DNA of 29,345 nt from a virus. Within the stretch, counting starts at the first letter, position 1. Each line of letters begins with the position of its first letter. The position numbers and the translations under genes were made by a program. Location of the stretch: IMG/VR virus record IMGVR_UViG_3300048839_001038, positions 1 to 29,345 of that record. One strand, given 5' to 3'. Under the pieces are notes generated by a model that did no database searches, was not told the origin of the DNA, and saw only the letters and a program-made list of their open reading frames with translations. This document shows positions 5,624 to 7,241 of the stretch, one piece after another.

Positions 5624-6363
5624 TGAAACCTCTCATCCAGGCGCTAGCGCGCGCATCAATGAACTTCACCGGAATCAAAAAGGATGGTCATGCACTGGCA
5701 GGCGGGACGCGTCCATATAACTATATGACCCTTGACGAAATCCTTGCAGCCGTTCGTCCGGCGCTTGCAGCTGAGGGACTTTTTCTATGGCATGATCCAA
5801 AGATAATCGAAAACCGCCTTTTGGAAGTTCACTGCCATGTGTCGGACGGTGAGCATACGCTATCAAACCATGTCCCCATGCCGATGACATTCAGCGAAAA
5901 GGCGAACGCTGCGCAGGCCATGGGGTCACTTTTGACGTACGGAAAAAGATATTCCATATGCGCATTACTTGGAATCAGCGCGGACGTGGACGATGACGCG
6001 CAAGCCACGGCACCGGAAACAAAGCCAGCAGCGCCTATGGGTCCTCGCATTGTCCCAGCTGCACCAGCGCCGGAAGTCAAACGCAGCGGCGGTTCAGCTT
6101 CCCCTGTCGCTGCGCCGGACGTTCCCCCGATTGATCATGAAATGCAGGAACGCATGGCTGCGATTGTCGATGAACAGCAGCAAAAGAAACGAAAGGAACT
6201 GCTGGATAAGTTCATCGAAAGGGTCAAGGTCCTTGGTATGAACAAGAATGAAGTGCTTTTGGAAAAGTTCGGAATGACAGGAACAATGATCGTAGAAAAG
6301 GCCACTCTTGCTGAACTCAAAAAATGGTATGACCAGCTTCCCAATCCAAAGGAAACACAATGA
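5623..6363 (+). CDS. erf: ERF-family single-strand annealing protein (246 aa)
   Basis: ERF proteins anneal complementary single strands in phage recombination and genome circularisation. Residues 1-130 hold the ERF core: YNYMTLDEILAAVRPALAAEGL, then AQAMGSLLTYGKRYSICALLGI followed by an acidic patch (DVDDDAQA), which is the family hallmark. A Pro/Ala-rich linker (about 130-170) leads to a helical C-terminus (RKELLDKFIERVKVLGM), as in P22 Erf where the C-terminal domain aids oligomerisation. ATG overlaps the Gp157 stop. No exonuclease or single-strand binding protein is adjacent in this window. Confidence 0.9.
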   Translation: MKPLIQALARASMNFTGIKKDGHALAGGTRPYNYMTLDEILAAVRPALAAEGLFLWHDPKIIENRLLEVHCHVSDGEHTLSNHVPMPMTFSEKANAAQAMGSLLTYGKRYSICALLGISADVDDDAQATAPETKPAAPMGPRIVPAAPAPEVKRSGGSASPVAAPDVPPIDHEMQERMAAIVDEQQQKKRKELLDKFIERVKVLGMNKNEVLLEKFGMTGTMIVEKATLAELKKWYDQLPNPKETQ

Positions 6364-6620
6364 AAAATATCATGTTCACGGTCATAGGACTGGCACTGTT
6401 CGCGTCCTCGATTCTCATGATCATGGTTGTCTATCGGGACATATTTCAAAAGAACAAGGGCATTGTCGAACTGACAAAAGCCGATTGCATCGAAACGTGC
6501 ATCAGGGTATTGCAAACTGAACAGCTATTTCCCGACTATCACCGCACCGTTCAAAAGTGCAATGACGTTTTTGCCGAGGTTGAATCATGCAGACTGGTCA
6601 AGTCAACTACCCGCCCCTAA
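6360..6620 (+). CDS. Single-TM hypothetical protein (86 aa)
   Basis: An N-terminal membrane helix (residues about 4-25, MFTVIGLALFASSILMIMVV) is followed by a soluble cysteine-containing part (DCIETC, KCNDVF, SCRLV). Four cysteines outside the membrane suggest disulfides if that part is periplasmic. Its ATG overlaps the ERF stop as ATGA. Its TAA stop lies exactly in the loop of the first hairpin of the downstream structured RNA. Function unknown. Confidence 0.65.
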   Translation: MKNIMFTVIGLALFASSILMIMVVYRDIFQKNKGIVELTKADCIETCIRVLQTEQLFPDYHRTVQKCNDVFAEVESCRLVKSTTRP

Positions 6621-6998
6621 AGGGGCAGGCATGTAAGGAATAGGTCCAAGCATGTCTCACGTTGACCCGCCCGAGCAAGAGGGGCAACCCTCAAGCTACG
6701 TTAGGAGCGAATCAGATAGGTACCCCTGGATGCTTCACCAGTCCTGGGCTCTACGGCAAGCGGTTAAACAGGAGTAAGGGGATTAGGCCAGTGCTGCTTG
6801 CAAGTAAACCGCTCCATAACATCGGCAAGGTGACCTTTACCCGCGCAAGCGGAGTATGCCGAAGTAATTCGGCGATGTCTCTCACGGGACTGACAGCCGG
6901 GAAAGACCGGCTCCCTTTGGGGATTATCTCCGACCTGGGAGATAGATCACTCTCAATTCCTCCCACCGATGAATCGGTGGGTATCCTTGTGAGGAAAT
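6607..6998 (+). ncRNA. Structured RNA resembling HEARO / IscB omega-RNA, without IscB
   Basis: About 390 bases with no credible gene but many stems: 6613-6617/6622-6626 (TAAA loop), 6679-6683/6688-6692 (GCAA loop), 6726-6729/6738-6741, long-range AGCGGTT/AACCGCT 6759-6765/6807-6813, TCGGCA/TGCCGA 6822-6827/6857-6862 enclosing a GCAA-capped stem 6841-6852, 6895-6900/6907-6912, 6926-6931/6938-6943, and 6962-6969/6974-6981. The starting GCCCC-TAAA-GGGGC hairpin, the CCCTGG...CCAGTCC arm and the position immediately before a start codon resemble HEARO RNAs, which guide IscB nucleases. No HNH or RuvC protein is encoded nearby. Class assignment rests on recalled pattern likeness, not a covariance search; structure itself is well supported. 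Confidence 0.65.
6957..6996 (+). promoter_or_regulatory. Stem that can hide the ribosome binding site of the 7002 gene
   Basis: TTCCT (6957-6961) pairs with AGGAA (6992-6996) outside the strong CCCACCGA/TCGGTGGG hairpin (6962-6981). The AGG of GAGG (6991-6994), the only ribosome binding site for the ATG at 7002, is thereby sequestered. This is the 3' end of the structured RNA and could couple its folding to translation. Confidence 0.5.
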
Positions 6999-7001
6999 AT
7001 T

Positions 7002-7241
7002 ATGAATCGAAAGGTCAACCTCATCAGGTTGGAAGGCGATAACAACGCGGAAAGTCCGCTCACAGTCACGGGGGAACCGCTGGATGCTATCTTTCGCATT
7101 GATCAGGACTTTGGACTTTACACACAAGGCACCCTTACCAAACGCGCCTACTTCGGACTTCTCAGCCGGGGAACGTATCAGGCCTATGAATTTCAGACCG
7201 CCGATGGACAGCGCAATGTCATCGTGCAGCGGGTATACTAG
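7002..7241 (+). CDS. Hypothetical protein directly after the structured RNA (79 aa)
   Basis: Starts MNRKVNLIRLEGDNNAESPL with GAGG 7 bases upstream. The sequence is beta-rich with short repeating strands (GLYTQGTLTKRAYFGLL, YEFQTADGQRNVIVQRV). It shows no HNH, RuvC or zinc motif, so it is not a recognisable IscB remnant. The next gene starts one base after its stop. No family recognised. Confidence 0.6.
   Translation: MNRKVNLIRLEGDNNAESPLTVTGEPLDAIFRIDQDFGLYTQGTLTKRAYFGLLSRGTYQAYEFQTADGQRNVIVQRVY

Follow-up and report, generated by a model that had tools for sequence, protein, structure and literature searches.

A HEARO/omega-RNA element without IscB at a start codon in a phage genome

How does a structured RNA of the kind that guides the IscB nuclease come to lie, with no nuclease gene beside it, exactly between two phage genes? 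This question is raised by the IMG/VR virus record IMGVR_UViG_3300048839_001038, whose entire 29,345-nucleotide sequence (here, the window) was analyzed. The original prediction, made from the sequence alone, placed a HEARO/omega-RNA-like structure at 6607-6998, noted the absence of an IscB gene after it, and offered three roles for it: a relic, a guide acting in trans, or an RNA reused for regulation.

The HEARO RNA of the window

The Rfam HEARO model RF02033 (gathering score, 83) matches positions 6602-6840 of the plus strand over its full length (model positions 1 to 211) with 123.6 bits and an E value of 1.9e-25, and this is the sole HEARO in the 29,345-base record. The 400 nt from 6602 to 7001 are predicted to fold better than every one of 100 dinucleotide shuffles (z = -4.4). 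In an alignment of 12 related sequences, 30 of the 67 HEARO pairs have changed in both partners, and 85.9% of the cells are paired (28 to 37% in slid controls), a share that favors the window because the structure was taken from the Rfam match fitted to its sequence; the double changes are therefore the stronger part of the covariation. None of the 500 shuffles attained any of these measures. The left end and first HEARO domain (6602-6667, plus strand), which comprise helices 1 and 2 and the hairpin CCCGCCCC-TAAA-GGGGCAGG, illustrate this: pairing in helix 2 reaches 95.8%, and 4 of its 6 pairs carry double changes. Judged by family match and covariation, the scaffold at 6602-6840 is a real HEARO/omega-RNA without IscB. 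Both refuting checks set by the original prediction turned out in its favor: there is a covariance-model match, and the frame that overlaps the RNA is not conserved (see below). The two GCAA-capped stems that it listed are found at 6679-6692 and 6842-6853, and its starting hairpin, CCCTAAAGGGG, is present.

No IscB is encoded in the 29-kb record (best tblastn E value of about 6), as had been stated for the DNA following the RNA. HEARO RNAs are usually located upstream of an IscB or IsrB gene, which is absent here, so the window RNA can be at most a standalone member of the family. A 126-codon frame at 6662-7042 was considered as a gene and rejected: it is broken in three homologs (L010, C32, and C8) by indels whose lengths are not multiples of three, in agreement with the earlier view that the run contains no convincing gene.

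Limits, copies, and relation to IscB-bearing elements

Copies of the locus were located by pattern and family scans in the viral contig L010 and in an Oligoflexaceae MAG (L037; genome G001). The solo copy in L010 is 82% identical to the window element; its alignment with the window begins no more than two bases from 6602 and runs to the ATGAA of 7002-7006, with different genes on the flanks. In G001, the copy on contig C32 is 89% identical over 400 of 400 positions, and the one on C8 is 73% identical to positions 1-362 of the element. Because the copies share ends at different flanks, the 390-base run can be read as one mobile unit of 400 bp at 6602-7001 (plus strand). Its ends are precise and are common to L010, C32, and C8 at unrelated sites, which corrects the limits originally set at 6607 and 6998. 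The predicted close fit between two phage genes was confirmed: an upstream gene with one transmembrane segment (6360-6620, plus strand) ends within the element, and a downstream 79-residue gene (7002-7241, plus strand) starts immediately after it. Neither of these genes could be assigned to a Pfam or PHROG family. The element displays typical ISC traits: each end has a hairpin, and one side is bordered by a fixed target tetranucleotide, ATGA at 7002-7005 (plus strand). No Y1 transposase is encoded within 6602-7001, so the element is non-autonomous.

The right transposon end (6923-7001, plus strand), which includes a hairpin at 6962-6981 (CCCACCGATGAATCGGTGGG), links the window element to IscB-bearing relatives. 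In G009, contig C95 carries a HEARO RNA, an intact 429-aa IscB, and a right end with 81% identity to positions 322-395 of the window element, and in G001:C52 a remnant of the iscB C terminus precedes a right end that shares 96% identity with that of the window. The first 254 nt of the IscB-bearing relative on viral contig L023 are 89% identical to the window, and the two diverge where iscB begins; no hairpin was found after this iscB and the junction is unclear, and L023 was excluded from the junction tally. Since the right end is common to IscB-bearing elements, the solo form is best read as the product of an internal deletion that removed iscB and retained the RNA and both ends. The putative former iscB start is the ATG at 6875-6877 (plus strand), 3' of the stem GCCGAAgtaaTTCGGC; L042 and L050 have a comparable stem ahead of the ATG of iscB. 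The frame that begins there remains open in all four solo copies (C32 has ACG for ATG), with no stop within the element. It extends the frame that follows iscB in G009 and enters the captured gene in a different reading frame; it is taken as a coding remnant.

The 3' part of the element also contains a hairpin AGCCGG-GAAAGA-CCGGCT (6895-6912, plus strand), which is kept in L010, C32, and C8 and appears in the predicted folds. The motif GACAGCCGGGAAAGACCGGCTTC, found in the window at 6893-6914, was additionally seen, mostly in intergenic positions, in approximately seven unrelated phage contigs (L029-L036) that have no HEARO match; it has no Rfam family.

Among the 13 viral HEARO loci examined, some of them contig fragments, 7 have IscB and 6 lack it. 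Genome G001 contains three full HEAROs, two solo and one with an IscB open reading frame of 398 codons, which runs off the contig end and is 71% identical to the G009 IscB. The same genome carries three Y1 transposase genes, all outside the element. Thus, a genome that carries close solo copies also has both factors that would be required in trans, the IscB being of the matching clade, and a supply of IscB in trans is plausible from these gene contents. In G016, which carries a solo cousin of the element, a full IscB was not found in the assembly.

No DNA match to the element was found in curated phage or plasmid records, and the ERF protein of the phage retrieved no relatives. Matches to the pattern GGATGCTTCNCCAGTCC in L004, L006, L009, and others were dropped as unrelated phage genes. 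The one close phage relative, L111 (96% identity in TerL), covers only 21.4-29.3 kb of the window, so that the HEARO locus is outside it. The TerL of the window phage was not found in genomes of the phylum to which G001 belongs; a host placement for the phage is suggested solely by the relatedness of the element.

Start codons and a Shine-Dalgarno-like sequence at the right end

Empty sites were read by joining both flanks (a slash marks the junction). In the window, the joined sequence is ...ACTGGTCAA/ATGAATCG, in which the upstream gene would end in AAATGA, its stop codon TGA overlapping the ATG that opens the 79-residue gene; the insertion replaces that end with STTRP*. The corresponding sites are GCAACGGAGGTTAAA/ATGAAA in L010, GCGGAGCCTCCCT/ATGAAACC (the start of glyA) in C8, ATGAAGGACTGATCA/ATGAAA in G009, and TTGAAGGAGAATA/ATGAAC (the rpsI start after rplM) in G016. 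At these four sites, the element separates the native Shine-Dalgarno sequence from the start codon; at the window site itself, the native Shine-Dalgarno sequence is weak and the flanking genes look coupled. The G016 insertion (G016:C27; L059) is a solo omega-RNA element at the start codon of rpsI, with the other ribosomal protein gene, rplM, on its other side. A short copy, G001:C81:10348-10500 (L076), represents a MITE-like stage with most of the omega-RNA deleted and both ends intact; it is inserted ahead of a response regulator ATG, and C233 ahead of the ATG of a VIT1-like gene, both gene names being readings of the translations. The C32 copy is located at an ATGA inside a HigB-like frame.

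At the right ends of this clade, the element is followed by ATG in all 10 junctions and by ATGA in 9 of them. The ATG is start-like, i.e., it opens a frame of at least 45 codons with an in-frame stop within 20 codons upstream, in six of the seven copies with both flanks known, a set that includes one autonomous copy (G009) and one cousin (G016). As background, 10.7% of the 1,494 ATGA sites found across about 178 kb of G001 are start-like (P = 9.5e-6); with sites in the interior of long open reading frames set aside, the share is 19.4% (P = 3.1e-4). Purifying selection against harmful insertions can explain part of this bias, which therefore is not proof of targeting. The exact fit between the two phage genes then reflects the usual insertion position, immediately 5' of an ATGA that in this case is a start codon; the first description of HEARO reportedly placed insertion adjacent to ATGA or GTGA.

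A similar tendency is seen outside this clade. In 20 plasmid and phage IscB regions, for which feature coordinates were copied by hand from tables, five clear cases (Trichormus parA/parB, Nostoc C052, two Pseudomonas plasmids, and a Polaromonas pilin operon) have their right end exactly at the annotated start of the following gene, and two more do so less clearly; annotated starts make up about 2% of the [AG]TGA sites in these regions. The Trichormus case (L091) is on plasmid C of Trichormus variabilis, a natural conjugative plasmid, with IscB between parA and parB and the right end at the parB start. Three solo elements from other clades were compared in viral contigs: in L024 and L022 the element is flanked by AAGG(A) and an ATGA start, which is not so in L014.

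The right end of the window element carries a Shine-Dalgarno-like GAGG (6991-6994, plus strand), 7 nt 5' of the ATG. The right ends read GTGAGGAAATATT/ATG in the window, GTGAGGAAAGATT/ATG in L010, GGAGGAAGCTTG/ATG in C8, GGAGAAAACTTG/ATG in C81, and GAAAGGAAGCATT/ATG in G009, and GAGG, GGAG, or AAGG occurs at about the same place in L010, L038, C8, C32, C52, C81, C233, and G009. Parallel motifs are found in Trichormus (CGAGGATTTTGT/ATG) and Nostoc (CTGGAGGGTTAG/ATG), and none was seen in L024, L028, or the Pseudomonas aeruginosa type. The phage contig L038 carries two family pieces: at 1-126 a left end truncated by the contig boundary, and at 1117-1221 a right end before a start codon. The position of the motif suggests that the captured gene could be translated from the element's own Shine-Dalgarno sequence.

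Proposed mode of persistence and comparison with known systems

In IscB and IsrB systems, the guide lies 5' of the scaffold, and NTGA is the target-adjacent motif (TAM) of IsrB (PMC9581776). By this analogy, and with the corrected left limit, the guide expected in the window is the 16 nt at about 6586-6601 of the left flank on the plus strand (20 nt in IsrB) rather than 6591-6606 as first proposed. With this guide and ATGA, compare NTGA, as the TAM, the RNA would target the empty site. The following scenario is favored, with a probability of about 0.7 for the whole. An IscB-bearing transposon of the IS200/IS605 type would have lost iscB by internal deletion, keeping both its ends and the omega-RNA complete. 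A Y1 transposase from the host would insert the element just 5' of ATGA, here between two phage genes, so that the flanking phage sequence becomes the guide. The RNA, if expressed, could be taken up in trans by a same-clade IscB from the host or a prophage, and this IscB would cut phage genomes lacking the element at that site, with the result that the element is kept and copied in, a drive-like retention. The filled site would be spared, as the guide sequence there is followed by GTCA instead of ATGA. The insertion itself would be nearly neutral: the native ribosome-binding site is split from the ATG, and the element would bring its own Shine-Dalgarno sequence, 7 nt upstream. An exact 20-mer of guide plus ATGA had no match in viral contigs. 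Several further observations weigh against this scenario: C81 persists, and perhaps moves, with most of its omega-RNA deleted, the IscB frame of this clade in G001 is cut by a contig end, and G016 is without a full IscB. A broader proposal, that of a family of guide-RNA-only elements that use the start codon as target and TAM, bring their own ribosome-binding site, and act as a nuclease-free gene drive with host IscB, is put forward only tentatively.

Of the three roles originally offered, a parasitic guide acting in trans fits best. Should the element instead be a relic, i.e., a deletion derivative moved in trans whose omega-RNA is a not yet decayed and now idle interior, the loss of most of the RNA in C81, the decay of the right-end fragments C52, C233, and C245, and the lack of IscB in the window would all be expected. 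Such a derivative does not readily account for full RNAs retained in solo copies that are 73 to 89% identical to the window or for the compensatory changes in the clade alignment, and decay alone does not easily explain why almost half of the viral HEARO loci examined (6 of 13) are IscB-less; an idle RNA is therefore considered unlikely. Even less probable is its reuse as a cis-acting leader that, with or without host IscB, controls translation of the 79-residue gene by hiding the new Shine-Dalgarno sequence. The predicted folds of the window, L010, and C32 pair CUCACGGG with CCUUGUGAG and cover part of the Shine-Dalgarno sequence, which suggests that it can be hidden by pairing; however, this right-end tail is different in C8, and there is no common regulon, as the family precedes unrelated genes (glyA, the response regulator, the VIT1-like gene, several phage genes, and, in the cousin, rpsI).

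A further alternative concerns the start codons only and is compatible with trans-guided retention. Here, GAGGA would be part of the recognition sequence of the transposase, so that the Shine-Dalgarno motif may be a by-product, and the bias would result from the ATGA target and the purging of harmful insertions. CCTT-GTGA-GG, CCTT-GAAA-GG, and CCTC-TG-GAGG indeed resemble a small conserved end hairpin, and other ISC clades (L022, L024, L028, and a P. aeruginosa plasmid) insert at starts with no obvious Shine-Dalgarno sequence. Nevertheless, the motif stands approximately 7 nt 5' of the ATG in the clade copies read, including the one before glyA, which presumably needs translation, and the bias persists against sites outside long open reading frames. 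This alternative is a serious one, albeit with less than even odds.

Under the broader, tentative proposal, an element relying on its own ribosome-binding site would be tolerable even in essential genes. Insertion before ATGA, mostly at starts, with a replacement Shine-Dalgarno sequence would provide a simple reason why ISC elements are able to persist in tight operons and in blocks of phage genes. Standalone omega-RNAs have been described before; a phage-borne one with start-codon capture and a putative built-in ribosome-binding site appears to be new, in that the papers searched, which do not extend to the founding HEARO and omega-RNA papers, contain no mention of start codons or ribosome-binding sites in connection with such elements.

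The RNA agrees with the RF02033/IscB omega-RNAs in the full-length model match, the helices, the expected 5' position of the guide, and the covariation; it differs from them in that no iscB is present in the element or the record and in an additional ~160 nt on the 3' side that end in the right end. MITE- and PATE-type non-autonomous IS200/IS605 elements have hairpin ends, no transposase, many sites, and a target tetranucleotide on one side; unlike them, the window element has a full guide RNA, is of a kind that captures start codons, and brings along a Shine-Dalgarno sequence. IStrons likewise combine an insertion sequence with an RNA function that renders insertion harmless, but they splice out (PMC4227781), whereas here replacement of the ribosome-binding site would suffice. 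TnpB drives the spread of insertion sequences in plasmid populations as a gene drive (PMC11870625), in which, as proposed here, the guide keeps a record of the insertion site and copies free of the element are attacked; that was shown for TnpB, and here both an IscB acting in trans and a phage population would have to take these parts. A further parallel is with the standalone omega-RNAs reported to function together with IscB (Altae-Tran 2021, as cited in PMC9581776), which are also complete guide RNAs without a nuclease gene and with IscB in a related genome. Compared with what that citation conveys of them, the present case is phage-borne and has its limits, right end, and insertion site resolved, with use in trans proposed by analogy. 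For RNAs of such little-known lifestyle, it provides the whole unit of guide, scaffold, ends, and insertion site in a phage, and a related genome that pairs a likely nuclease donor with solo copies.
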